64,000 nt of DNA. Origin: Planctomycetota bacterium (GTDB lineage Bacteria > Planctomycetota > UBA1135 > GCA-002686595). A program made the translations under genes and the position numbers. The DNA is taken from positions 1 through 64,000 of the forward strand of contig JAKLKU010000005.1 in the NCBI GenBank assembly GCA_023150475.1. The letters run 5' to 3'. The first letter of the stretch is position 1; each line of letters begins with the position of its first letter. Positions 29,507 through 52,870 of this stretch are shown here, one piece after another. The notes beneath the pieces were generated by a model, which was not told the origin of the DNA, searched no databases, and saw only the letters and a list, made by a program, of their open reading frames with translations.

Positions 29507-31936
29507 TCACTCCCCCGGCGGTTCGGGCTGCAACCAGAGGATCGAGTGCACGAGCCCGTACTTCGCGATCTTCTCGCCGTCGTCGAAGTCGCGCATCGGC
29601 TCGGGATCGATGCCGAACGCGTTGTGGCCGACCAGGATCGTGTTGTTCTTCGTCCAGCCGTCGGCGTCCCAACGGAACGCGTAGATCGCCCCTTGCGGCC
29701 CGGTCGTGGCGCTGACCGCGCGGCGCGAGCTCGTCCAGATGTCGTAGAGCATCGACGTCAGCCAGCCTTCGTCGAAGGCTTGGTTGCCGATGCGCCGCGT
29801 CCGCCAACCGGTCATCAAGCCGTTGCCCGCCGCGATCACCGTGTGGAAGACGTTGAGCTGTCCGTCGGCGTCGAAGATCACGCTCGGCCGCGTGCTGCAC
29901 TGCGTCCCGGCCGCTTCGCCGCGCACCCATTTCGTCTCGACGTCGACCAGCTTGTCGCCCGCGAGCTTGAACCACGTGACGCGCATGCACATCGGCGCGC
30001 CTGCGGAGTTCGTCATCGCGCTCGCCATCACGATGCGGCCGGTGCCGGGCTCTTCGGCGATGCCGGGCGCGACTTGCGAGCGCAATTCGAGCTCCTGCGC
30101 AAGGCTCGCGTTCGCCGCCTTGCCGTCGTGCGCGAACCAGAACGCGCGCAGCGAGTCGTCGTCCGAGCGCGCGACGAGCAGGATCCTGCCGCCGACGAGG
30201 CCGGCACCGAGCTCGCTCGCTCCGACGAGCCCGTTCACTGCGACCGGCGCATCGATCGAGCTCGCGTCGAAACGCGCGACGAGCCAATGCGGCGCGCGCC
30301 GGAAGAAGAGGAAGCCCTGCTCGGCGTTCCCGACGAGCAGCGGATCGCCGTTGGTCGCGGAATCGGGCACCACGCGCGGCTCGCTCCACTCTTCCGAGCC
30401 GAGGTACGTCTTCAGCGTGATCGCGCCTTGTTCGGGCACGACTTGCGCGAGGTAGCACGTCCCCGCCGCGTACCCGAGCGCCGGCGCCGCCGCGGTCAGA
30501 CCCGCGTCGCGCCGGATGCCGCAGTTCGTCGAACTGCCGTAGTTCACGTCCGCGCTGACCGGTTGCTCGTCGAAGCGCCCGTTCTGGTTCCAGTCGATCA
30601 GCGTCTCGTTCGGTCCGTTCTCCTTCAGCGTGAAGCGGAACGGCCACGTCGCGAGGTACGCGAGCTCGGCGTGCGGGTACGGGAGCTTCTCGACCAATCG
30701 TTGCTCCTCGAGCACCGTCGCGCGGAAGCGTCCGTCGGAGAAGCGGATCGCGTTGCCGTCGCCGTTCAACGCGTAGCTGAACGCGTAGTTCATCAACGAC
30801 GGATAGAGCGGACACCACACCGGCGCCGAATCGCCCGTGTGACCGAGCGAGAGCTGATGGCCGAACTCGTGCGCGAAGACGGCGAAGCCCCAGCCTGCGC
30901 CTCCCATGTCGCTCGTCTCGCTCGATTGCCCTCCGCCCCACGGTGTCACTTGCATCCAGTGCAACATCCCGCGCTCCTTCGGCGCGAAGTACGCGTTGCC
31001 GCACTGCCCCCAATCGCCGCCGAAGTTCTTCGCGTTCGGGATCACCGGGTCGATGCGCGGATGCACGCGCACGCCGCGCGTGCCGTCGGGGTTCGTCGTC
31101 GCGAGCGCCGCGTAGAGCTGCTTCACGCGCTCGAGCTCCGCCGGCAACGCCGCGAGATCGACGCCTTCGTACGGCGCGACGGCGCAGATCACGTCTTGGT
31201 GTTTCGGGTCGAGGCTGTTCCCCGGACCGATCGAGATGCCGCGCGGCAGACCGAAGACTTCCCAACCGTCGAGCAGTCCGTCATCGTCGGTGTCGCGGTC
31301 TTCGGGATTCGAACCGAGCGCGAGCTCCTGCGAGTTCGGCACGCCGTCGCCGTCGGTGTCGTCGGCGTTCGCGTTCGGCGCGAACCCGACGCGCAGGTCG
31401 AGGAAATCGTGCGGCCGCGAGCAACGGAAGAGCGAGATCGTGTCGACGTGGCCGTCGCCGTCGAGGTCGCCCGGAAAACTCGCGAGCGGGGCGAGCGTCG
31501 GCTCGTACGGCGGTGCATCGGAGACGCGCGCCGGCGCGAACGGCTGTCGAGCGGCCCGTTCGAAGCCGTCGAGCCCGCCGGGCCAAGCGCTCGGATCGAG
31601 CGCCTTCCACGGCGACGCCTTCCAACCGCGCACGGTCTCGGCGACGAGCAACGTGCGCTGCGGCGTCATCACGACGACGTCGTCGAATCCGTCCTTGTTG
31701 ACGTCGTGGCAAGCGAAGAGCGAGTGCTCGCTGCCCGCAGTCGCCCAGGTCTGTCCAGCGACGACGACCGGAGCACTTGGATCGCTCGGTGCTACGGGCT
31801 CTGCGTCTTTCGAAGCGGCGTCCTGCGGCACGAGCACGGTCTCGGCAGGCGGCGTTTCGGTAGGCGGCGTCTCGGCGGGAGGCGGCTGGGCTGGCTTCGA
31901 TTCCTGCAACCAGGCGAACGCAAGCGCGATCAACAT
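29507..31936 (-). CDS. Secreted zinc metallopeptidase-like protein with calcium-binding (thrombospondin type 3-like) and FG-GAP segments
   Basis: HEFGHQLSLGH (HExxHxxxxxH); DTDGDGVPNSQELALGSNPEDRDTDDDGLLDGWEVFG; N-terminal signal MLIALAFAWLQ. Confidence 0.8.
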   Translation of the reverse strand: MLIALAFAWLQESKPAQPPPAETPPTETPPAETVLVPQDAASKDAEPVAPSDPSAPVVVAGQTWATAGSEHSLFACHDVNKDGFDDVVVMTPQRTLLVAETVRGWKASPWKALDPSAWPGGLDGFERAARQPFAPARVSDAPPYEPTLAPLASFPGDLDGDGHVDTISLFRCSRPHDFLDLRVGFAPNANADDTDGDGVPNSQELALGSNPEDRDTDDDGLLDGWEVFGLPRGISIGPGNSLDPKHQDVICAVAPYEGVDLAALPAELERVKQLYAALATTNPDGTRGVRVHPRIDPVIPNAKNFGGDWGQCGNAYFAPKERGMLHWMQVTPWGGGQSSETSDMGGAGWGFAVFAHEFGHQLSLGHTGDSAPVWCPLYPSLMNYAFSYALNGDGNAIRFSDGRFRATVLEEQRLVEKLPYPHAELAYLATWPFRFTLKENGPNETLIDWNQNGRFDEQPVSADVNYGSSTNCGIRRDAGLTAAAPALGYAAGTCYLAQVVPEQGAITLKTYLGSEEWSEPRVVPDSATNGDPLLVGNAEQGFLFFRRAPHWLVARFDASSIDAPVAVNGLVGASELGAGLVGGRILLVARSDDDSLRAFWFAHDGKAANASLAQELELRSQVAPGIAEEPGTGRIVMASAMTNSAGAPMCMRVTWFKLAGDKLVDVETKWVRGEAAGTQCSTRPSVIFDADGQLNVFHTVIAAGNGLMTGWRTRRIGNQAFDEGWLTSMLYDIWTSSRRAVSATTGPQGAIYAFRWDADGWTKNNTILVGHNAFGIDPEPMRDFDDGEKIAKYGLVHSILWLQPEPPGE

Positions 31937-32269
31937 GGCCCGAAACGTATCAGCGCACCCATCATCCAGCCAGTCGGCAACTGCCGACGCGCGCAATGTA
32001 CGTGATCGCGCCGTCGAGCCAGAAGTCGGCGTGGAGTTCGAACCACTCAGTCGGATCAAGCCACCCACACACACGATCCGAGGCTGATCGATCGAGCAGC
32101 GACCGACTCGCGACCGAAGGACTCAGACTCAGCTACGACGCACGAAACGCAGCGTTCGCAACGCAGTCCCGTGCGATCCCGAGGCGGCAATCGCACGCAG
32201 GACCTCCCTCGGCACCGAACCGCGCTCGCGATTCGATCAAGCCAATCCCTGTCGAGGTGCTTCGTCGGG

Positions 32270-34291: not shown

Positions 34292-36892
34292 TCACTGCGA
34301 GCCCGGAGCGCGGGGCGCACTGGCCTCGATCACGCCCGACGAGACGGGACGCACGTCCGAACGCAGCAACTCACCCCACAGCCGATATTCGAGATCGAAG
34401 AGCTCGAGCTGCGCGGCCGTCGGTTCCGAGTTCCCGTGACCCAACGTGTCATCGGAGAGCAAGTCACCGAGACCGGCGACGATCAGACGTCCACCCGACG
34501 CGAGCTCCGACGCAGCGGCCACCACGATGGTCGAGTTCAGCGTGAGCAGCGCGTCGCCACCTTCTATCGCTGGCCACGACCCCGCGAATTCGCCACGCGA
34601 CGCCGATGCCGTCCATTCGTTGCCCACCCAGCCCACCGTCGCCGGAACCGGTCCCATGTCGACCTCAGGCGGATTGGGTGTCCCGGGCCGCGGAAGCTTC
34701 GGCCGCGGGGTCTCCGAGCCGGGCTGCCAGCGCATGCCGCCCAGCGCGAGCAGCGACGCGGTCGGCGCGACGGCGCCGGCGTCCGCCACCACGAGCACCC
34801 TGCCGCCGCGGTCCAGGTACGACCGGATCTTCTCGATGGCAGCGCCGTCGATGCTCGCGCGCGGGCGCACGAGGATCAGCGACTCACCTCGAGCGAGTGC
34901 GTCGTCCAGCACGTCGCTGACCCGCGGCGTCAAGTCCAAGCGTTGCGCCCAGTTGAAGAACGTGAGCCACGTCGGTTTGGACTCGTCGATCAACTGCGTG
35001 ATCGGCAAGTGGTAATCGGAGTCCCCCCGATAGAAGTACATCTCGGGATAAGGCTCACGCGGATCAGGCAGCTCGTAGTGCGCGCGATTCCATGCGTCGA
35101 CGCACGGCGTCCAGATGACCGCCGCGAGCGCCGCCGGCGCGATGAAGTCCCCGATGCCGCGTTGGAACGCACTCGTCCTCCGCGATGCGATCCACGCGGC
35201 GGCGAGTCCGACAGCCGAGAGCGACCACCACAGTCCATCCCACGCGAGCCAAGTGTTGGTGCGGTTCAACCACTCGATCGCGCCGAGTGCGAGCTCGGGC
35301 TTTCCGGGCAGGTAGACGAAGAAGTTCGACCACACGGTGCTGTCGCTGAACGCGAGCACTCGCCCGCGCCCTTCGGTCGTGGCGACACATTGATGGAACA
35401 CGCCGAACGGGTAGTGGCGCCACGCGTCGCGTTCGGCGAAGAAGCTCGGCTGGGAGTAGTCGGCCGGGAGCGTCCTCAACGCCGGACCGGTCTGTACCGG
35501 TTGGACCCCAAGACCTCCGCGCAGACTGCATGACGTGGCAAACAAGAACGTCGGTAGCTGCGCGATCGCGGCATGCCGCCCGACGGACGGAGGGTCGTAG
35601 CGCGACAGGCCGCCATGGTTGTTGTCGTACGTCGCGTCGTGGACGAACTCGATGTCGTAGTCGGCGGCGATCTGATTCAGGTAGAACGAAGTGCCGAAGA
35701 CATTGGTGTGGTCACCGATCAGGAAAAGCCCGCCGCCGCCCGCGACGAAGCGACCGATCGCCGCCACTTCTTGCGGATCGTAGGCCTCGGTCGGCGTCTT
35801 GATCACCAAGACGTCGACATCCGCGAGCCGCGCGTCGTCGATGGCTTCTCGGTTGATCCGCACGTCGAAGTACCTCGCGAGGAACTTCGAGAGACTCGAG
35901 TAGTTGTAGGTCGTCCGCTGTCCGTACGTTTCCCGATCCATCGGAACGTCGGTCCACTCCCAGTCACTGTGATTCTCGTCGATCACGATCCGGCCCGGCT
36001 TTCGGAGCCCCGGGTCGACGGGAACCCACGCGATCCAGAACGACGCAACGGCCACACTGACCGGGACGAGCGTGCGCAACCGCAGTTCCAAGGGAACGTC
36101 GCTCGCCGGACTCCCGATCGACGCCGACGCGGGACGAGCGAGCAAGACGACGAGCGGCAAGAGTGACATCCAAGCGAACGTCGGTCGCCAGAGCATGTCG
36201 ACATCGCTCGCCGAGATGCTCCAAACGAAGACGACGACGTACCGGGCGCACAAGTAGCCGAGACTGATCCACGCCGCGCGCCACACGTAGCGCATCGAGA
36301 TGCCACCGGTGAGCCACAAACCCGGAAGCGCGCCTGCGACCAGCATCGCGAACGGATAGACGCAGAGCCCTTCCAGCGTCGGCGTCACGCGGTATGCGAA
36401 GTCCACGTCGGTGAGCAACAGTCCGTCGTCAGGGCGAGTCGTCGGCGCTCCGATCAGCGCCAACAGTCCGCGGAACACCGGCGTGAGGGCGGGCAGCTCG
36501 TGCACGTTCGCACCGAATCGACGATTGAGCAAGTCGACGACTCCGCCGCACGCCAACGCGCCGGCGAGCGCCAGCCCGACCAACGCCAGGCGTCGCACGA
36601 TCGTCTGCGGAAACACGGCGAGCCCGAGTCCGAGCGCGAGCAGCACCGCAACTGCATTGGCGGGCCACGGCCAGACGAATGCCCCGGCGCAGGCGATCAA
36701 CGCGAAAGAGCACGTCGCCGGATGTGCCTTGCGAATCGCCGCGTGACGGACGAGCACCGCCAAACAGACTGCCGCGCCTGCGAGCGCCCAGCCACCCGGC
36801 CAACTTCCGGTGCTGGCACTCCAAGCGCCTCCACCGAGCAACCAAGTGCCGCAGACGAACCAACCGACGAGCCACGCCAGCGTTGCGTTCAT
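34292..36892 (-). CDS. Multi-TM protein with exosortase-like N-terminal region and tandem GATase1/DUF4350-like domains
   Basis: TM region with LLALIGAPTTRPDDGLLLTDVDFAYRVTPTLEGLCVYPFAMLVAG...YLCARYVVVFVW; then VDVLVIKTPTEAYDPQEVAAIGRFVAGGGGLFLIGDHTN and a second such domain. Confidence 0.6.
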   Translation of the reverse strand: MNATLAWLVGWFVCGTWLLGGGAWSASTGSWPGGWALAGAAVCLAVLVRHAAIRKAHPATCSFALIACAGAFVWPWPANAVAVLLALGLGLAVFPQTIVRRLALVGLALAGALACGGVVDLLNRRFGANVHELPALTPVFRGLLALIGAPTTRPDDGLLLTDVDFAYRVTPTLEGLCVYPFAMLVAGALPGLWLTGGISMRYVWRAAWISLGYLCARYVVVFVWSISASDVDMLWRPTFAWMSLLPLVVLLARPASASIGSPASDVPLELRLRTLVPVSVAVASFWIAWVPVDPGLRKPGRIVIDENHSDWEWTDVPMDRETYGQRTTYNYSSLSKFLARYFDVRINREAIDDARLADVDVLVIKTPTEAYDPQEVAAIGRFVAGGGGLFLIGDHTNVFGTSFYLNQIAADYDIEFVHDATYDNNHGGLSRYDPPSVGRHAAIAQLPTFLFATSCSLRGGLGVQPVQTGPALRTLPADYSQPSFFAERDAWRHYPFGVFHQCVATTEGRGRVLAFSDSTVWSNFFVYLPGKPELALGAIEWLNRTNTWLAWDGLWWSLSAVGLAAAWIASRRTSAFQRGIGDFIAPAALAAVIWTPCVDAWNRAHYELPDPREPYPEMYFYRGDSDYHLPITQLIDESKPTWLTFFNWAQRLDLTPRVSDVLDDALARGESLILVRPRASIDGAAIEKIRSYLDRGGRVLVVADAGAVAPTASLLALGGMRWQPGSETPRPKLPRPGTPNPPEVDMGPVPATVGWVGNEWTASASRGEFAGSWPAIEGGDALLTLNSTIVVAAASELASGGRLIVAGLGDLLSDDTLGHGNSEPTAAQLELFDLEYRLWGELLRSDVRPVSSGVIEASAPRAPGSQ

Positions 36893-39333
36893 CGCGCTTC
36901 CACCTGTTCCAGGGCCCGCCGAACGAGCGCAGGCAGAAAACGAGCGTTCTCTTCTATGAACTCGTCATCGTCTTCGAGGTTCTTGTTGAGCAGGTACTGC
37001 GAATCGGACACGAAGACGAGTCCGCCCCGGCCACGCGGCAACCACGTGATGACCGGCAGACCGTGCACGGACGCCCACGCGACTGCGTCACTTGGATGCG
37101 TCAAGGTCGGATACGCGTCGTAGAAACGCATCGCTCCCATCTCCGTCTCCGCCTCGGCGGGACCGAGTGGGGTTTCGCCGACTTGCAGCGAGAAGCGTTC
37201 GAGCAAGGGACGCTGGAGCCGCTCGTGTGGCTGGCCCAACGTGATCAACGCAACGCCCCCGTCCTCGATCCAGCGTTCCAGTAAGTCGAGTTCCTGGTCC
37301 GTGAACGTCCGCGTGGGTGTCGCACACACGAAGACGCTCGCTTCGTCGAGTAGGTCGGCGCGAAACTCGGAGGGAAGGAACGGGCTCAATCCGGCCCGAA
37401 ACAGCGATTGCTGAAGTCCGCCGATTCCGTCGCCGTACCAGCCCAAGCGAGTCACACGAGGCGCATGACTGAAATCCACGTGGGCGATCGTCGCCGTCTC
37501 CGAGCGGCTCGGCGTCCACTGCGCCTCCCGATCGAAAGCCACCGACGGAATGGGCGCGCACGCCAGCAAGGCGGTGGCGAACGCGCTGTCCGCGCGCTGC
37601 GCAAGCGCTAGCAACAGGACCAGGCCGAGCGCGATCACGCCCATTGCGTCCCTCGCGCGCGTCGACAGGCGACTCGAGTCGTCGCCTGCGAGCCAACGGA
37701 TGCAGCGATCCGCGAATGCCCGTGATCGACCGAGCGCCAGGTTCTGGAACGGCGAGGTGTCGCCGAACACCAGGACACGCCCACTCTTCGGCTCGGCGGC
37801 CGCGACCAGCACGATGTCCCCCAAGTGTTCGTCGATCGAGTGGCGCATGTCGCCTAGGTAGGCGTTGGACTTGTTGTGCGAGTCCCCTGGATCGGCGAAA
37901 GCATCGCGACCCAAGACCACGGGTTCGGCGGGCCACCGCGTCCGAAGACTCGCGCCGGTCCAGATCTGCAGTTGCTCTTGGCTGTTCACTCCGCGCGTGA
38001 CGGGGTGGGGTCTCACTTCGACGCCGTCGGCCCAAGAACGACGGACGGCGACCGCCGTGTCGAAGTTGACTTCGATCCCCCAACGTGACACGACCTGATT
38101 CGACGGCTCTCGAATCGCGTCGAAGCCCGTGTGGTCGGCGAGCACCAGCAACCCGCCACCGGATTCGACGAACTCTTCGAGTGCGGTCCTGGTGGCTTCG
38201 GGCAACGGGTCGATGACGTTGATCATCACGACGACGTCGCACGCTTGGGGATCGAAGCTCAGCGAAAGATCCTGACGAGTGACGTCGAATCCCGCGATGT
38301 CACACCAAGTGTCGAAGTAGCCGAACATCCCGCTCGCGCGGCTCCCGAACGTGTCCGGGTCCGTGGCGGGAGTGCGTCGGTCGAGGTAACCCGGATCGTG
38401 TACGACCACGCGGGGACGCGACGCGGCACCGACGCCGGCTTCCTTCCACGGCAGGAGCGCTGCACACGCGATGGAAGCAGCCACGGCCACCGACACGGGC
38501 GCCCAAGACGAACGCACGTCGCCGGGCTCCGGCGCGATTCGTGGGTTCCTCGCGAGCACCAGGTACAACCACGCGGCGACGACGAGCAGCCACACCCAAC
38601 TCGTGTCGGTGATCATCAGCCCTCGGAGCCCGAACGTCTCGTTCGCGAATCGCAGCAGCGGGGCGGAGCCCAGCACCCACGCACACTGGAGGCAAACGAC
38701 CGAAACGGCGGCGACGATCGCGCCGCGAATCGATTTCGAGGGCTGCAGCCCGATCGCGATGAACCACGCGAGGATGGCCACGTCGACGCCCGCGGAACGT
38801 GCTCCGAAATGAACGTAGGCACCGGGCACGTGCTCCGACAGTCGAGTGAGCCAGTGAGCCCACTCGAGCGTCGCTGCGAATCCGGCGGCCGTGCCGTGGA
38901 CGACGAACCAGACCGGCGTCCAGCACGCGACGCCGAACGCAAGTCCACTCAGCGCACTGCGAACCTCGGTGCGCGCATCGACGCACGTCCGTGCGAACTG
39001 CCAGCCGGCCACGAGGACGATCGGGCGCGCGGGCACCGGGAGCAGCGCGATCATCGCGACGACGAAGACCGTCGCCAGGTCGAAGAGCCGCTGCCGAGCG
39101 ACGACGTGCGGGCGGGCGCACCAAAACGTCGCGAACGTACTGACCGCGCCCAAGGCGTTGTCCAGCCAGTAGCGGTTGTCCCCGACTGCGCGCATCGAGT
39201 ACGCGACGGCGAACAGCCCGAACGCGAACAGCGGCCCGGTTCGGGCCATGCCGAGCAGCGAGTGGACGATCCTGGATGGCCACGAATCCGAGCGCCGTGC
39301 GTGCCCGGCCGTCAGAGCGAGATCGTCAGTCAA
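36889..39333 (-). CDS. Paralog of downstream gene: multi-TM plus tandem GATase1/DUF4350-like domains
   Basis: Same layout; CDVVVMINVIDPLPEATRTALEEFVESGGGLLVLADHTGFDAI; second domain VFVCATPTRTFTDQELDLLERWIEDGGVALITLG; 4-bp overlap with next gene. Confidence 0.65.
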   Translation of the reverse strand: MTDDLALTAGHARRSDSWPSRIVHSLLGMARTGPLFAFGLFAVAYSMRAVGDNRYWLDNALGAVSTFATFWCARPHVVARQRLFDLATVFVVAMIALLPVPARPIVLVAGWQFARTCVDARTEVRSALSGLAFGVACWTPVWFVVHGTAAGFAATLEWAHWLTRLSEHVPGAYVHFGARSAGVDVAILAWFIAIGLQPSKSIRGAIVAAVSVVCLQCAWVLGSAPLLRFANETFGLRGLMITDTSWVWLLVVAAWLYLVLARNPRIAPEPGDVRSSWAPVSVAVAASIACAALLPWKEAGVGAASRPRVVVHDPGYLDRRTPATDPDTFGSRASGMFGYFDTWCDIAGFDVTRQDLSLSFDPQACDVVVMINVIDPLPEATRTALEEFVESGGGLLVLADHTGFDAIREPSNQVVSRWGIEVNFDTAVAVRRSWADGVEVRPHPVTRGVNSQEQLQIWTGASLRTRWPAEPVVLGRDAFADPGDSHNKSNAYLGDMRHSIDEHLGDIVLVAAAEPKSGRVLVFGDTSPFQNLALGRSRAFADRCIRWLAGDDSSRLSTRARDAMGVIALGLVLLLALAQRADSAFATALLACAPIPSVAFDREAQWTPSRSETATIAHVDFSHAPRVTRLGWYGDGIGGLQQSLFRAGLSPFLPSEFRADLLDEASVFVCATPTRTFTDQELDLLERWIEDGGVALITLGQPHERLQRPLLERFSLQVGETPLGPAEAETEMGAMRFYDAYPTLTHPSDAVAWASVHGLPVITWLPRGRGGLVFVSDSQYLLNKNLEDDDEFIEENARFLPALVRRALEQVEAR

Positions 39334-42031
39334 TTTCGACCTCCACGTCGTGGACCTGGCGGTCCGCGGACAACAGGAACGCGTGCGACATCGGTACGCC
39401 CGCGTCGTTCGCGGTGCCCCCCGAGCCCACGGTCTCGGACAACCAGAGTCGAACTTCGTAGCGGCCTGGTGAGAGGTCCACGAAGTCCGAGCGCCCGTCG
39501 CGGTCGAGACGGGATTCCCTGAGCTCGTCGAGCCCGGCGAGGAGCACGCGCTGACCGTCGAGCGGCCTACCCGACTTGCTCCGGATGCGCAGCTTCAGCC
39601 ACACGGCGTCCGCGAGCCCATCGAAGTCGATCACGGTGGCGACGGAACTCCACGGCGCGATCGATCGCGAATGGCGCACGTCGGCCCAGCGAATGGACAC
39701 GGTCCAACCACGACTGACGTCCAACGCGACACGCGCGCAGCCGGAGGCGTCGGACTTCGCTTCGATCGGCTCGACGTCCGCACCGGACTCGCTCACGGGC
39801 GTGCAGACGATGCGCAGCCCTGCGAGAGGTGCTCCGGACGTGCTTCGACAGCGCACCGTGCGCTCGACGACGGCCGCGAGGACCAACCGACCGAGTTCTC
39901 GATCGAGACGCTCCGCGGGGATGGCTCGACTGTGACGGCCGCGACCAACCTCCTCGGCGAGCAACACGCCCGCGACGTCGACGGGAACTCGAATCGAGAA
40001 CTCACCGGAGCGCGGATCCACTTCGAGCCGACGGACTCGAGCCTCGTCGGCGACGGCAGGCATCCACGCGACGGTGGCCTGCGTCGCCGCGCTCCCGTCC
40101 TCGCGAACGACCTGGCCGACGATGCGCCGCGAAGCGCGCAGGACCAACTCCGGCGACGGATCTCCGACGTGGACGGTGACCGGGCCCTCTTGGAGCAGGT
40201 GTGCACCGTCCGGCGCGACGTCGATCTCACACTCGAACGCGTGCAGGCCCCCGACGCGGAAGACGCCGTTCGCGTCGGTTCGCACCTTGGACTTCGCGGT
40301 CCACCTCGAGGCCGGTAGTTCCGACACGGTCAGTTCCACCCCTTCGAGCGGGCCGCCGAGTTCGTCGACGCACGAGCCGGTGAGCGCCCACGTCGACCGC
40401 GCGCGCAACACGAGTTCGATGCGCTCCGTCGACGGGCTGACCACGGCCTGCGCCACCCGCTCGTCTCGCTCGGTGGTGACCACGATCTCCTCGTCCGGCA
40501 AACACGCCAGCACGAACCGTCCGTCTAGATCGCTCTCGGCGACGCATCCGCGAAGAACGAAGCCTCCTTCCGCGAGCGTCGCGGAAGTGAAGATCGCGGC
40601 GCCGGCCACCGGTTCGCCGCTCGCCTCCGTGACCCGCCCCGTCACCGACCGGCCGCGTTGGAGGACCAAGGTGCCGACATCGAGCACCTCGCCGCTCGCC
40701 AGCACGAATCCGGACGCTCCGTCTCGAGGCGCGAATCCTGCGCACTCGGCCACGACTTGGTAGCGAACACCGGGGATCAACCGTCGGCACGCGAACGCCC
40801 CGTCGGCCGCGACGGCGCACGACAGCGGCTCGAGGTCCGTGCCCGACATCGCGAAGTCCGACGGCAGTCCGTCGACCCGCACGAAGCGAACCGTCGCACG
40901 AGAAAGCTCGACCGGCGCGCGAGCAAACTCGACCGGCGCGTCCCCCGCTTCGACCGCGATGCGTCCAGTCACCGTCGGCGCTGGCGCGAAACGCAGCACC
41001 ACCTCGCCCACGCCGCTGGTCGGCTCGTCGGAGCCGGACGCAGCGACCTCGGCCGACTGAGTCACCCAGCCCTCGGCGCTGCCCACCACGCGGAACGCGC
41101 GATTCGGCGCGTTGGCGAGCACCAGCTCGCCGCGAGCGTCGCTGACGTGCCCGGACTCGCCCCCCGCCGCATCGTCGAGCCGCACGAGCGCGCTTGCGAT
41201 GGGCGTCCCGTCGAAGGCGACGCAGCGCACTCGCAGCGAGCGCCCGGGCTCGAGTTCGAGCAGCGCCTCGTGAACCGATCCTGCTTCGAGCGGTGGCAAC
41301 GAGCGGGTCGCCGGCGCCCATCCATCCGCCACGGCGGTGACACGGAGCCGCGGAGTGCGCGTCGGCAGGGACGTCATCGTGAACCTGCCGAGCGAATCGG
41401 TCCGCGCGTTGCCCCACTCGCTTCCGACGTCGTCCACGACACGCACGACGACGTCCGCGATTCCGAGCTCGCCCGCGCGAACGACGCCTTCGACGGAACC
41501 TCGACAGCGCGCCAGCCGAATCACTGGGTCGGGGTCGCTCGCGGCGACGCTGCGACTGTGGGCTTCGTAGCCCGGCGCGGAAGCGCGCGTGCGCAGCGTC
41601 GTTCCGTGGACACCGAGGAGTTCCACTTCGCCTGACGCGTTGCTCCGCAGTCCCGTCGCGGTCGCGGTCAGCGCACCGTCGAGAGGACGGACCGAGACCG
41701 TTGCGCCCGAGAGCGGCGAGCCGTCCTCGGAGTCGACGACGCGCAGCACGGTTCGCCAAGAACCGCGTGTGCTCTCGGCGACCGCTTCGGCGCCGACGTC
41801 TCGCCGCGGATCCGGTTCGGCGGTCGATCGGAGCGCTCCGCCGGAGTCAATTCGTGCTGCACGGGACTCGGGCTGGGCGCCAGCGGGCCGTTCGGTGGGC
41901 TCGACCGAATCGTTCGAGCTGATGCGCAGGGGCCGTGACTCCGAGTACGCCCGCAGCCACACGGCGAACGACACGCCGCCGAGCGTCACCGCGAGCGCTA
42001 CGAAGAGCAGCTTGCCTCGCATCGTGCCCAT
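39326..42031 (-). CDS. Membrane-anchored multi-domain CpD-regulatory-like (beta-sandwich) protein
   Basis: N-terminal TM GKLLFVALAVTLGGVSFAVW; many repeats such as VTGRVTEASGEPVAGAAIFTS...DLDGRFVLACLP. Confidence 0.8.
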   Translation of the reverse strand: MGTMRGKLLFVALAVTLGGVSFAVWLRAYSESRPLRISSNDSVEPTERPAGAQPESRAARIDSGGALRSTAEPDPRRDVGAEAVAESTRGSWRTVLRVVDSEDGSPLSGATVSVRPLDGALTATATGLRSNASGEVELLGVHGTTLRTRASAPGYEAHSRSVAASDPDPVIRLARCRGSVEGVVRAGELGIADVVVRVVDDVGSEWGNARTDSLGRFTMTSLPTRTPRLRVTAVADGWAPATRSLPPLEAGSVHEALLELEPGRSLRVRCVAFDGTPIASALVRLDDAAGGESGHVSDARGELVLANAPNRAFRVVGSAEGWVTQSAEVAASGSDEPTSGVGEVVLRFAPAPTVTGRIAVEAGDAPVEFARAPVELSRATVRFVRVDGLPSDFAMSGTDLEPLSCAVAADGAFACRRLIPGVRYQVVAECAGFAPRDGASGFVLASGEVLDVGTLVLQRGRSVTGRVTEASGEPVAGAAIFTSATLAEGGFVLRGCVAESDLDGRFVLACLPDEEIVVTTERDERVAQAVVSPSTERIELVLRARSTWALTGSCVDELGGPLEGVELTVSELPASRWTAKSKVRTDANGVFRVGGLHAFECEIDVAPDGAHLLQEGPVTVHVGDPSPELVLRASRRIVGQVVREDGSAATQATVAWMPAVADEARVRRLEVDPRSGEFSIRVPVDVAGVLLAEEVGRGRHSRAIPAERLDRELGRLVLAAVVERTVRCRSTSGAPLAGLRIVCTPVSESGADVEPIEAKSDASGCARVALDVSRGWTVSIRWADVRHSRSIAPWSSVATVIDFDGLADAVWLKLRIRSKSGRPLDGQRVLLAGLDELRESRLDRDGRSDFVDLSPGRYEVRLWLSETVGSGGTANDAGVPMSHAFLLSADRQVHDVEVEID

Positions 42032-42121: not shown

Positions 42122-44497
42122 CTAGCCGACTCGGCTCCGCCGAGTGGAGATCATGCCGAGACACGCGAATCCGAGCGATGCCAGCATCGTCAGCGGAGAA
42201 GGCGATTCGCGTCGCCCGGGGTGATGATGACCGTCGCCGACCGCCGCGACGTCCGTTTCGTGCGGCAAGCACGCCGTGGCGTTTTCCGCGCACGACGGCG
42301 TGCCAGCGCAGGTAGCGAAACCAGTGCACGTGTTCACGCACGTCTCGCTGCCGTTGCACGACACTCTGCCGTTGCACGTCGCCGTGCCGTTGCAGGTCTT
42401 CGGCCCCTGCAATCCTTTGCACGTCGAAGCGCCATTGCACGTCGGTCTGCCATTGCACGTCGTGGTGCCGTTGCACGTGGCGAATCCATTGCACGTGTTC
42501 GCGCCGGTGCACGTCGTCGTGCCGTTGCACGTCGTCGAACCGTTGCACGTGGAAGTGCCATTGCAGGTCGTCGAGGCATTGCACGTTTCGGTCCCGTCGC
42601 ACGTGTCGATGCCCTGGCAGGTCGTCGTGCCATTGCAAGTCGAAGTGCCACTGCAAGTCGTCGTCCCGTCGCACGTGTTCGTGCCGTTGCACGTGTTTCC
42701 ACCATTGCAGGTCCATCCGCCATCACACGTGGACGTGTTGTCGCAGGTCGAACCTCCCGTGCAGGTGGCACCGGCATCGCACGTCGGCACGCCGTTGCAC
42801 GTTTCGGTTCCATCGCAGCTCGGAACGCCGCCGCAAGTGGAGGTGCCGTCGCAGGTGGAGTTCCCGTTGCACGTGGTCGTCCCATCGCAGGTCCCCGACC
42901 CGTTGCACGTCGCTTCGCTCGCGCACGTGCTTCCGGTATTGCACGTGACCGAGCCGTCGCAAGTGTCTTTTCCGTCGCACGTCGTACTGCCGTGACACGA
43001 AGGATTCCCAGTGCACGTGGCGGTGTTGTCGCACGTGGCGGATCCGTCGCACGTGACGTCCGGGATCACCCGCGCACTCGCAACCGCCGCCCGCGCGAGC
43101 ACTTGCTCGGCGCGTCGAGCCGTGATCACTCGCACGTCGAGGCCGAGGAACTTCGCCTTCGTCGACTCGAGCGAGTCGCGATAGAGCGGATTCTCCGCCG
43201 GCGAAGGTTCCACGTGGCGCACGACTCCGGCCGAGCGCGACACACCCGCGAATCCGGGCGTGCCGAACGTCGCGACGACCAACACGGGGAGCATCCAACG
43301 CAGCAGGCGCGACCAGCGCGTGCCGGCGCCTCCAACGCGGCGCCGCCGAGGCGCGATGCCCACACCCACCATTCCGAGAGCGCAGAACCCGAGGGCCGCC
43401 AATCCTCCGGAGCTGCGCTTCAGCATGCCGGCGAGCAGGGCTGCCCCCGACTCTCGGGTCGCAGCCCGAGCGAAGTCGTGCCCACACGCCGGAGTCTGCT
43501 GGCAGGTCGGAGACGTCGCACACGTCGAGACACCGTTGCACGTGAACGCGCCATCACAGGTCGCCGTCCCGTTGCAGGTCGCCATACCGATGCACGTGCC
43601 CGAAGATCCGTTGCACGTCGGCCCTCCGTTGCAGGTCGCACCGCCGTTGCAGGTGGCCGTGCCCTGACACGTCGGGCCCGAGCACGTGAAGCCCGAGTTG
43701 CACGTGTTCGATCCGTCGCAAGTGGTCGACGCATTGCACGTTGCCTGGGTCCCGCACGTCGCGCCGCCCATGCACGTCTGGGATCCATTGCACGTGAAGT
43801 AACCCGTGCACGTGTACTGACCCGTGCAGGACGGCGTCCCCGAGCAACTCGTGCTTCCATCGCAGGTGTCGGTGCCCGAGCACGTCTGCCCGCCGGTGCA
43901 GGTGTACGCACCATTGCACGTCGGCTGCCCGTCGCACGTGCTGGTTCCGCCGCACGTCCAGCCTCCGCCACACGTCTGGGCCCCGGTGCACGTCGCTGCG
44001 CCATTGCACGTCCATTGCCCGCCGCACGTCAGTGCCGCGCCGCACGTGGACGTGCCGTTGCACGTGGCTGCGCCATTGCACGTCGTCGCGCCGGAGCACG
44101 TCGTGCCGCCATTGCAGGTGTCGATTCCCTGACAAGTCGCACCCGCGTTGCAGGTCGGCGTCGCATCGCACGTCGATCCGCCGTTGCAGGTGGATTGACC
44201 ACTACAAGTCAGCGTGCCCTGCTTGGTCGGCTCGTAGGTCTCCGCGACCCAGAACGCCTTCGGCGCCAGGCTCGCCGTCGATCGAGGGACGATGTAGAGG
44301 ACCGGTCGCTTCTCGAAGCGCGCTTTCGCTTGTGCCAACGAGTCCCCCCAAACCGGCGGGACGCTCGGTTCGGACCACGAGCGCGCGGGCACCCGTGGCG
44401 ATGGTTCATTCGAGCGGCCGAGGCCGGCGGCGACCGCGTGAGTTCCGACGAGGAGCAAGACGACGACGATTCGACAGCTCGAGAGCAAAGGTCTCAT
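42122..44497 (-). CDS. Duplicated Cys-rich hexapeptide-repeat (TCxGxx) surface protein
   Basis: Start MRPLLSSCRIVVVLLLVGTHAVAAG; two arrays of about 41 and 43 T-C-[ND]-G-x-x units, each with its own N-terminal hydrophobic segment and C-terminal TM + RRxRVG tail. Confidence 0.85.
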   Translation of the reverse strand: MRPLLSSCRIVVVLLLVGTHAVAAGLGRSNEPSPRVPARSWSEPSVPPVWGDSLAQAKARFEKRPVLYIVPRSTASLAPKAFWVAETYEPTKQGTLTCSGQSTCNGGSTCDATPTCNAGATCQGIDTCNGGTTCSGATTCNGAATCNGTSTCGAALTCGGQWTCNGAATCTGAQTCGGGWTCGGTSTCDGQPTCNGAYTCTGGQTCSGTDTCDGSTSCSGTPSCTGQYTCTGYFTCNGSQTCMGGATCGTQATCNASTTCDGSNTCNSGFTCSGPTCQGTATCNGGATCNGGPTCNGSSGTCIGMATCNGTATCDGAFTCNGVSTCATSPTCQQTPACGHDFARAATRESGAALLAGMLKRSSGGLAALGFCALGMVGVGIAPRRRRVGGAGTRWSRLLRWMLPVLVVATFGTPGFAGVSRSAGVVRHVEPSPAENPLYRDSLESTKAKFLGLDVRVITARRAEQVLARAAVASARVIPDVTCDGSATCDNTATCTGNPSCHGSTTCDGKDTCDGSVTCNTGSTCASEATCNGSGTCDGTTTCNGNSTCDGTSTCGGVPSCDGTETCNGVPTCDAGATCTGGSTCDNTSTCDGGWTCNGGNTCNGTNTCDGTTTCSGTSTCNGTTTCQGIDTCDGTETCNASTTCNGTSTCNGSTTCNGTTTCTGANTCNGFATCNGTTTCNGRPTCNGASTCKGLQGPKTCNGTATCNGRVSCNGSETCVNTCTGFATCAGTPSCAENATACLPHETDVAAVGDGHHHPGRRESPSPLTMLASLGFACLGMISTRRSRVG
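42270..43056 (-). repeat. Hexapeptide-encoding (18-bp) degenerate tandem repeat, array 2
   Basis: TCDGSA TCDNTA ... TCNGTS TCNGST TCNGTT ... SCAENA; about 43 units read by eye. Confidence 0.88.
43478..44209 (-). repeat. Hexapeptide-encoding (18-bp) degenerate tandem repeat, array 1
   Basis: TCSGQS TCNGGS TCDATP ... TCNGVS TCATSP TCQQTP; about 41 units read by eye. Confidence 0.88.
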
Positions 44498-45387
44498 CAC
44501 GTTCTGGACTCCGATTGCGTTCAAACCGACGAACGGTCTGAACCAGTAGTGACTCGCCACGTCCACCGGTTCGCGGTCCCCTCTGCTGCGCCGGTCGACT
44601 CGAGTTCGACGGTAGATGGGCTCACCGAGGCGTCAAGCACCCGAGCAAGTCGATTCTTCAACTTCTCTCACACGGCACTGCGATTCGATTTCGCGTCCCG
44701 CATTCGCATTCGCATACCTATCACGCGACTCGTTTTCGATTTCACCATCTCAATAGGAAGACGACGGTTCGTCGGACTCCGCGCGTGATCGCCGTGAACC
44801 GCGAGGTCGCGGGGCGTGGCGACGAGCGACCCGCGCGAACGGTTCGCGAGTTCCTCGGAAGTCGGCGTGCGCGCAGTGCGCGTCCCGAGCTCGGCTCGAG
44901 AGGACTCACCGAGTGTCGCGGTGCAAGATGCACTGCGGGAGCGACGCGGTGCGGACCATCGTCGTGCGGGTGGAGCGAAGCGGCACCGAGTCATCGCCGC
45001 CGTCGCGGGCGCCGCGATCGTCGCCGTCTCGACCGGCGCGGCCGGCGCACGGGGTCGTCACAGGGAAGCGAAACGATCCGGCGCCGCAAGCGACGCCGGA
45101 TCGCCATGTCATCTCTTCAGGAGTTGCACACCACCCTCCTCTGCGCGGGGTGTACGCTCCCCGCGCCGGTTGGAGCGGCGCGCACGATCCGTGTCGGCCG
45201 CCGACGCGCACGGCTTGAAGTCCCGCGTCGGAACTCGGGATGTCGCCGGGGTCATCCGCGAGATCCGAATTGCGGCTTCGCGCACGATCGCGAGCCCAGA
45301 CGGCTCGCCACGAACTCCCAAACCGTCGCTGCGAACGGTCCCGCGGCCCGAAATCAGCACCGGTGACGCGCGCGAGGCGCGCCGCGC

Positions 45388-52730: not shown

Positions 52731-52870
52731 CGAAGTCGAGCGCGGCGAAGTCGAGTTGGCCCGAGTGAGGCGGACCTCGGTCAGGCCGGCCTCGGTCAGG
52801 CGTGCCCAGGTCAGGCGTGCCCAGGTCAGGCGTGCCCAGGTGAGGCGTGCATCCGTCAGGCGTGTCGCGA
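52731..52870. repeat. 15-bp tandem repeats (two unit types) upstream of hydrolase gene
   Basis: gcgcggcgaagtcga x2 then about seven units of gtcaggcgtgcccag (three exact). Confidence 0.85.

Follow-up and report, generated by a model that had tools for sequence, protein, structure and literature searches.

A widespread family of bacterial cysteine-ladder proteins coupled to a pair of multi-span membrane proteins

A planctomycete gene for a putative exported protein with long TCxGxx hexad arrays was found to belong to a real, widespread and undescribed protein family, which has a conserved box and partner genes and occurs in at least four bacterial lineages. Computation established that the family is coupled to a pair of genes for multi-span membrane proteins, here called M1 and M2. 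An extreme architecture, reaching more than 200 cysteine hexads in one Zixiibacteriota open reading frame (ORF), is tied to a specific pair of membrane genes, which no array genome examined was without; this link makes the function testable by deletion. Searches of the open-access literature found no description of the array repeat or of the M1-M2 pair; subscription journals may hold one.

The array gene and its two fused copies

The array gene lies on the minus strand of the window, i.e., the whole 64,000-nucleotide stretch of planctomycete DNA that was analysed. A sequence-only reading had proposed an ORF at this place with about 84 TCxGxx units in two arrays and cysteine at nearly every sixth residue, and all of this was borne out. 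The protein contains 84 [TS]C dipeptides, 62 TCxG and 51 TC[NDST]G, and we counted about 41 and 44 Cys units in the two arrays against the earlier 41 and 43. In the ORF started at GTG, 78 of the 87 Cys-Cys spacings are exactly six residues. This in-frame GTG at 44566 is an alternative start that gives 814 aa instead of 791 aa. No Pfam or NCBIfam family matched the 791-aa protein, and the genome sequence searched holds one such gene.

The sequence-only reading had noticed neither the conserved operon downstream nor that the ORF consists of two tandem whole-gene copies (signal, box, array and tail) joined in frame. Copy 1 continues as RRRRVG-GAG where copy 2 ends as RSRVG-stop. The features of the gene, all on the minus strand, are as follows:

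42122..44497, minus strand: gene of the cysteine-ladder protein, 791 aa, putatively exported; ATG at 44497, stop at 42122
44423..44497, minus strand: copy 1 signal-peptide-like start, MRPLLSSCRIVVVLLLVGTHAVAAG, recognized in the sequence by eye
44315..44365, minus strand: copy 1 box, SVPPVWGDSLAQAKARF, aligned with the SPLFxxSL box of relatives
43484..44209, minus strand: array 1 with 41 Cys units; its unbroken period-6 run, at 43670-44209, comprises 30
43331..43402, minus strand: copy 1 hydrophobic and Arg tail, LAALGFCALGMVGVGIAPRRRRVG, without a stop
43244..43294, minus strand: copy 2 signal-like start, MLPVLVVATFGTPGFAG, by eye, in the frame of copy 1; an internal ATG is possible
43148..43204, minus strand: copy 2 box, SPAENPLYRDSLESTKAKF
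42269..43054, minus strand: array 2 with 44 Cys units; its unbroken period-6 run, at 42407-43054, comprises 36
42125..42184, minus strand: copy 2 hydrophobic and Arg tail, LASLGFACLGMISTRRSRVG-stop

Within the unbroken runs of the window, position 1 of the hexad is Thr in 94% of the units, position 2 is Cys, position 3 is Asn or Asp in 62% and position 4 is Gly in 82%. When five consecutive CxGxxx units were written as a degenerate DNA pattern, 24 matches were found in the window, all within the array gene, and none in 100 dinucleotide-preserving shuffles of the window. The units vary in their codons and in their variable residues, which marks the array as selected protein sequence and not a recent minisatellite. 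The array gene is not a DNA satellite. An artefact, in which a GC-rich satellite or an untranslated frame spells TCxGxx by chance, has hardly any chance of being the explanation. GC-rich DNA does yield long antisense ORFs, such as one of 855 aa on the plus strand, and satellites spelling TCxG exist in many genomes. However, T, C and G stay constant here while the unit sequences vary, signal segments, box, tails and operon surround the array, and the artefact is refuted by distant relatives that retain the box and the partner genes.

The 855-aa open frame antisense to the array gene (42221-44788, plus strand) is probably a by-product of GC-rich coding sequence. Elsewhere in the window, another 855-aa protein (29507-32074, minus strand) has weak metallopeptidase (M10/M12-like), TSP3 and FG-GAP matches, and a tandem repeat with the 15-base unit GGTCAGGCGTGCCCA and 91% matches lies at 52779-52864.

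Relatives with a conserved box and interchangeable anchors

Relatives were sought by scanning a collection of genome contigs for four consecutive TCxG units, followed by translation, and satellites of one repeated unit were set aside. The bare pattern of five CxGxxx units was discarded since it matches DNA satellites in many genomes. Translation showed that most of the TCxG matches were also satellites of a single unit; sources of such false matches include satellites spelling TCxG or VTCVGC in Sporosarcina and Limosilactobacillus (L193, L200 and L204). Arrays with varied units were found at at least 10 loci, including three from Zixiibacteriota, five from Bacillota/Clostridia, one from a deltaproteobacterium and one from 'bacterium' WY4.bin59, whose genome is grouped in the same phylum as the Zixiibacteriota genome G451. 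Among the matches listed, the genome-wide search for (TCxG..)n that the sequence-only reading had proposed gave true relatives in Zixiibacteriota, Clostridia/Bacillota and a deltaproteobacterium. Viral contigs held satellites or short frames and no family member.

The longest array ORFs contain about 100 to 208 hexads by a script count of units, with more than 200 in one Zixiibacteriota ORF, and unbroken period-6 runs in the family reach 46 units without a slip. Complete members start with a signal-like segment followed by the box SPLFxxSLxxSLxxF, in which P, S and L are invariant in an alignment of 11 rows. When the first 220 aa were searched with the regular expression PL[FYW]xxSL, the box was present in 19 of 21 array ORFs and in none of the 418 other ORFs of the same loci. 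Two array ORFs gave no match: a frame that forms the downstream part of a split array, and the window ORF, where the copy 2 box lies beyond the first 220 aa and the copy 1 box has V for L. Both window boxes, PPVWGDSL in copy 1 and NPLYRDSL in copy 2, align with the box of the relatives.

The C-terminal anchors differ among lineages, comprising dockerin-type repeats in Zixiibacteriota, SLH domains in Bacillota and a hydrophobic membrane tail in the window. That one type of array carries interchangeable cell-surface anchors is the main ground for reading it as a surface module, and we infer that the array protein is located at the cell surface. The earlier statement that no family could be named holds for named families, in line with the Pfam and NCBIfam result, but the conserved box and partner genes do define a family.

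Two other repeat proteins were seen during this search. L002:1066-1926 (minus strand), from a further genome of the window's family, encodes Cys hexads of another type, CDAxxx (e.g., CDAPAKCDAKSDCGD); this genome had no M1 match at the threshold used. At L166:1-3393 (plus strand), near a Zixiibacteriota array in the same locus, the encoded protein has 1130 aa and thrombospondin type 3 repeats, of which Pfam counts 12.

Coupling to the M1-M2 membrane proteins

Three genes follow the array gene in the window, and the four probably form one operon:

39326..42031, minus strand: 901-aa protein containing several carboxypeptidase-regulatory-like domains; 90 bases separate it from the array gene
36889..39333, minus strand: M1, multi-span membrane protein with GIFT/DUF4350/ABC_transp_aux-like domains, overlapping the preceding gene by 8 bases
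34292..36892, minus strand: M2, second multi-span membrane protein with GIFT/DUF4350-like domains, overlapping M1 by 4 bases

In both M1 and M2 the N-terminal region is multi-span, and the GIFT/DUF4350-like domains contain GGGLLxxGDHT as a conserved stretch; Pfam ABC_transp_aux and DUF4350 were above cut-off in both window proteins. GIFT domains are named for GldG and IFT52, are present in the oligosaccharyltransferase subunit Wbp1, have been proposed to bind sugars and are tied to glycosylation and gliding (PMC7226087). The neighbour gene of clostridial arrays is M1 as well (window M1 and L206 are 36% identical over 207 aa; E 1e-26 to 1e-36). A fold search with the predicted model of the M2 membrane region, which had modest confidence, gave no match. 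The idea that M2 is an exosortase came from motifs seen by eye and was rejected; the Pfam/NCBIfam matches of the scanned M1/M2 members included no exosortase. M1 was not found on plasmids.

M1 was present in all 17 array-bearing genomes examined, window included, and M2 nearly always follows it. Among the matches listed from the TCxG scan, 10 of 10 array genomes had M1, at E values from 1e-22 to 1e-92. M1 is otherwise sparse, occurring in 3 of 80 other genomes of the window's family and in 13 of 294 sampled genomes of its phylum. In Zixiibacteriota, 8 of 133 genomes carry the array and the same eight carry M1 (Fisher p 5e-13, uncorrected for kinship); in the Clostridia class of G457, both occur in the same 4 of 245 genomes (Fisher p 7e-9, likewise uncorrected for kinship). 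Array and M1/M2 share one locus in 11 of the 17 genomes, i.e., the window, G452, G455 (across a contig break), G456, G457, G458, G460, G586, G588, G612 and G672. M1 is cut by a contig end in G453 and G587, and array and M1/M2 lie apart or on different contigs in G451, G454, G585 and G459.

Cysteine repeats of other kinds also neighbour the pair. Arrays of period 7 ([ET]T[KR]CPxx and similar) were found beside M1/M2 or at a contig end in the window's phylum:

L395:5494-7026, plus strand: period-7 Cys array with 59 consecutive Cys at period 7
L376:1-495, plus strand: period-7 Cys array
L390:6486-8570, plus strand: period-7-type Cys array in a divergent gene
L418:2806-3627, plus strand: period-7 Cys array

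Four of the five genomes with genuine period-7 arrays were M1-positive (p 1e-5), and in the fifth, G159, the array is cut by the contig end. The sixth genome of the heptad scan, G329, was set aside as a satellite of one repeated unit. A 799-aa protein with about 27 CSV-type Cys repeats and bacterial Ig domains is encoded at L389:11142-13541 (minus strand); the genes after it, for a carboxypeptidase-regulatory protein, M1 and M2, keep the window's arrangement. Carboxypeptidase-regulatory-like genes adjoin M1/M2 in L319, L392 and L393 too, and a short Cys-rich protein neighbours the pair in L319.

Some neighbours carry no cysteine array. Giant RHS-repeat proteins without one immediately precede M1-M2 at L317:9330-15737 and L318:5277-11549 (both minus strand), and L387 and L388 have RHS giants near the pair, judged by length and start only. 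At L386:9111-10034 (minus strand), a TPR protein without a Cys array but with an ISPLYQSTL box after its signal immediately precedes M1-M2, so the box may belong with M1-M2 and not with the array. Taken with the Cys-repeat neighbours, the RHS and TPR proteins indicate that M1-M2 accompany Cys-repeat proteins often, not exclusively. In the loci read, M1/M2 have no recurrent ABC ATPase, sortase or glycosyltransferase neighbour.

On the other side of the pair, small membrane-anchored CcmH-like proteins are encoded right after M2 in Zixiibacteriota (L308:13807-14566, plus strand; L397:1763-2131 and L398:3055-3471, minus strand). Pfam was above cut-off for one CcmH-like protein and weaker for three others scanned. 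These genes hint at thiol chemistry. In one Bacillota genome, a WG-repeat protein is encoded immediately after M2 (L311:4052-5662, plus strand).

Fold, function and comparison with known systems

The reading that we favour, which in our judgement could equally well prove right or wrong, is that the array protein is a secreted, cysteine-runged beta-solenoid surface fibre, matured or exported by M1-M2. Family members would share a layout of signal, short PLFxxSL box, long TCxGxx hexad array and lineage-specific anchor. Outside the cytoplasm, two hexads would form a 12-residue coil, and the coils would stack into a thin beta-solenoid in which the two Cys of a coil, six residues apart, may be joined by a disulfide, forming a rung like those of beetle antifreeze protein. 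Covalent bracing by such rungs would make the rod stiff, and the anchor would keep it on the surface. M1-M2 could be a membrane platform reserved for the array protein, serving its export, folding, disulfide control or glycosylation and perhaps recognizing the box that adjoins the signal, and the array would serve as a structural or adhesive surface fibre and not as an enzyme. We favour this reading because array and box are kept in four lineages with interchangeable anchors, M1 strictly co-occurs and often co-locates with the array, clostridial arrays show a 12-residue alternation, the Tenebrio antifreeze protein TmAFP has the same register, CcmH-like thiol proteins follow M2 in several Zixiibacteriota loci, and GIFT domains are linked to glycosylation and gliding (PMC7226087).

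The fold evidence is mixed. AlphaFold2 (AF2), given 16 arrays as input, returned pLDDT 44 and pTM 0.25; strands of three residues, recurring at six-residue intervals, were confined to the better half. The structure prediction that had been called for was thus of low confidence, and the model is no evidence by itself, all the more since AF2 over-predicts solenoids for repeats (PMC11795689). In seven clostridial arrays, self-likeness at a lag of two units had z values of 0.7 to 3.8 while that at a lag of three averaged about 0, which fits 12-residue and not 18-residue coils. The window array gave z +0.9 at lag 2 and +3.1 at lag 4, and Zixiibacteriota arrays showed little lag-2 signal. The paired-hexad coils suggested earlier are therefore supported by the alternation in several clostridial arrays, but the signal is weak or absent in the window and in Zixiibacteriota. 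TmAFP has the repeat TCTxSxNCxxAx, with a C2-C8 disulfide and inner residues C2, S5, C8 and A11 (PMC8038014). The array profile aligned with TmAFP (1EZG) along its length, weakly (E 0.007) and with a large composition bias; other PDB matches (u160579, scytovirin, tektin-5 and spindle fibril) were judged to reflect composition. The earlier comparison with TmAFP was supported in part: the array protein is a Cys-periodic solenoid candidate in the TmAFP register. A beetle-antifreeze-like fold is plausible, and a TmAFP-like coil is the best single fold model, with about an even chance of being right.

The low AF2 confidence and the weak or absent 12-residue signal in the window and Zixiibacteriota count against our favoured reading, as do the period-7 arrays beside M1-M2, which misfit a strict 12-residue coil, and the RHS and TPR neighbours without Cys arrays. 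Some of these points, such as the low AF2 confidence, would suit a wall or matrix protein that is rich in Cys but forms no ordered solenoid. Its chain would be flexible and possibly glycosylated on Thr, and cross-links through Cys between adjacent chains would make a tough coat, in a role comparable to that of the planctomycete Cys-rich YTV wall proteins. We regard this as rather unlikely. In its favour, the units are rich in Gly, Thr and Ser; the Cys repeats beside M1-M2 may have period 6, period 7 or irregular spacing, as a loosely constrained spacing would allow; GIFT domains are a hint of glycosylation; and planctomycetes have known Cys-rich wall proteins (PMC8567305, PMC10632474). However, loose cross-linking would not call for the strictness seen in 78 of 87 spacings of six and in unbroken runs of up to 46 units, and the clostridial alternation also speaks for order.

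In a search for VKOR, 18 of 19 array carriers lacked it, and many carriers look anaerobic; both points also count against our favoured reading. Alternatively, the Cys might stay reduced and bind metal ions or take part in redox or thiol reactions on the outside of cells that are mostly anaerobic, an explanation that we think distinctly improbable. The lack of VKOR, the gut or subsurface origin of several carriers by sample label and the CcmH-like proteins beside M2 in Zixiibacteriota agree with free thiols. However, the array proteins have no recurrent CxC, CxxC or His-rich metal motif, and absence of VKOR leaves room for other oxidants, such as DsbA/DsbB. Metallothioneins do not usually have single Cys at six-residue intervals.

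The earlier suggestion, from regular Thr and Asn/Asp ladders, that the array binds ice, polysaccharide or cations was not supported. The second Thr of a TxT face is not conserved: Thr occupies position 3 in 11% of window units and in about 4% in Zixiibacteriota, and clostridial arrays showed no Thr there. The Asn/Asp ladder is peculiar to the window, being absent in Clostridia. Judged from these residues, ice binding by the array protein is unlikely. An antifreeze protein like TmAFP would account for the Cys register and the conserved Thr before each Cys; however, carriers include gut, rumen and subsurface bacteria by sample label, and an antifreeze would have no use for the M1-M2 pair to which the arrays are invariably coupled, making this explanation very improbable.

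More broadly, we tentatively suggest, as a possible though doubtful extension, that M1-M2 may be an undescribed membrane machine that, recognizing the PLFxxSL box, turns Cys-ladder proteins of period 6, period 7 or looser spacing into covalently runged surface fibres by exporting, modifying or assembling them, in at least four lineages. If the surface-fibre reading is true, it would represent a new class of bacterial surface fibre, give GIFT/DUF4350 domains a concrete client outside gliding and glycosylation, and provide a genetically encoded, possibly disulfide-braced rod for materials work.

Among known proteins, TmAFP (Tenebrio/Dendroides, 1EZG) resembles the array family in its Thr-Cys repeats, Cys six residues apart and a small residue three after Cys, and a 12-residue register is possible for the array proteins. 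However, TmAFP has 7-11 coils of 12 residues and a TCT (TxT) ice-binding face, whereas the array proteins have 40 to over 200 hexads, lack this face, and are bacterial, apparently surface-anchored and coupled to M1-M2. The two are probably analogous at most. M1 and M2 share GIFT/ABC_transp_aux/DUF4350-like domains with GldG, IFT52 and Wbp1/OST48, but the NCBIfam GldG model scored them at 12.5-13.8 bits against a cut-off of 390 (E 0.016-0.04), and the loci read contain no Gld ABC ATPase or permease gene. The accessory Sec system of Ser-rich repeat adhesins, sortase pili and PEP-CTERM/exosortase likewise couple a repetitive exported protein strictly to its own membrane genes, and the window copies have a PEP-CTERM-like tail by eye; in contrast to those systems, no SecA2/SecY2, sortase, glycosyltransferase or exosortase recurs in the array/M1-M2 loci read. 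The YTV-domain proteins, which are also Cys-rich and exported, are planctomycete wall proteins proposed to stiffen the envelope by cross-links and are reported to be restricted to Planctomycetales/Planctomycetia (PMC8567305, PMC10632474). Compared solely with these published descriptions, the TCxGxx family is set apart by its own box and partner genes and by its spread across Zixiibacteriota, Bacillota and other lineages.
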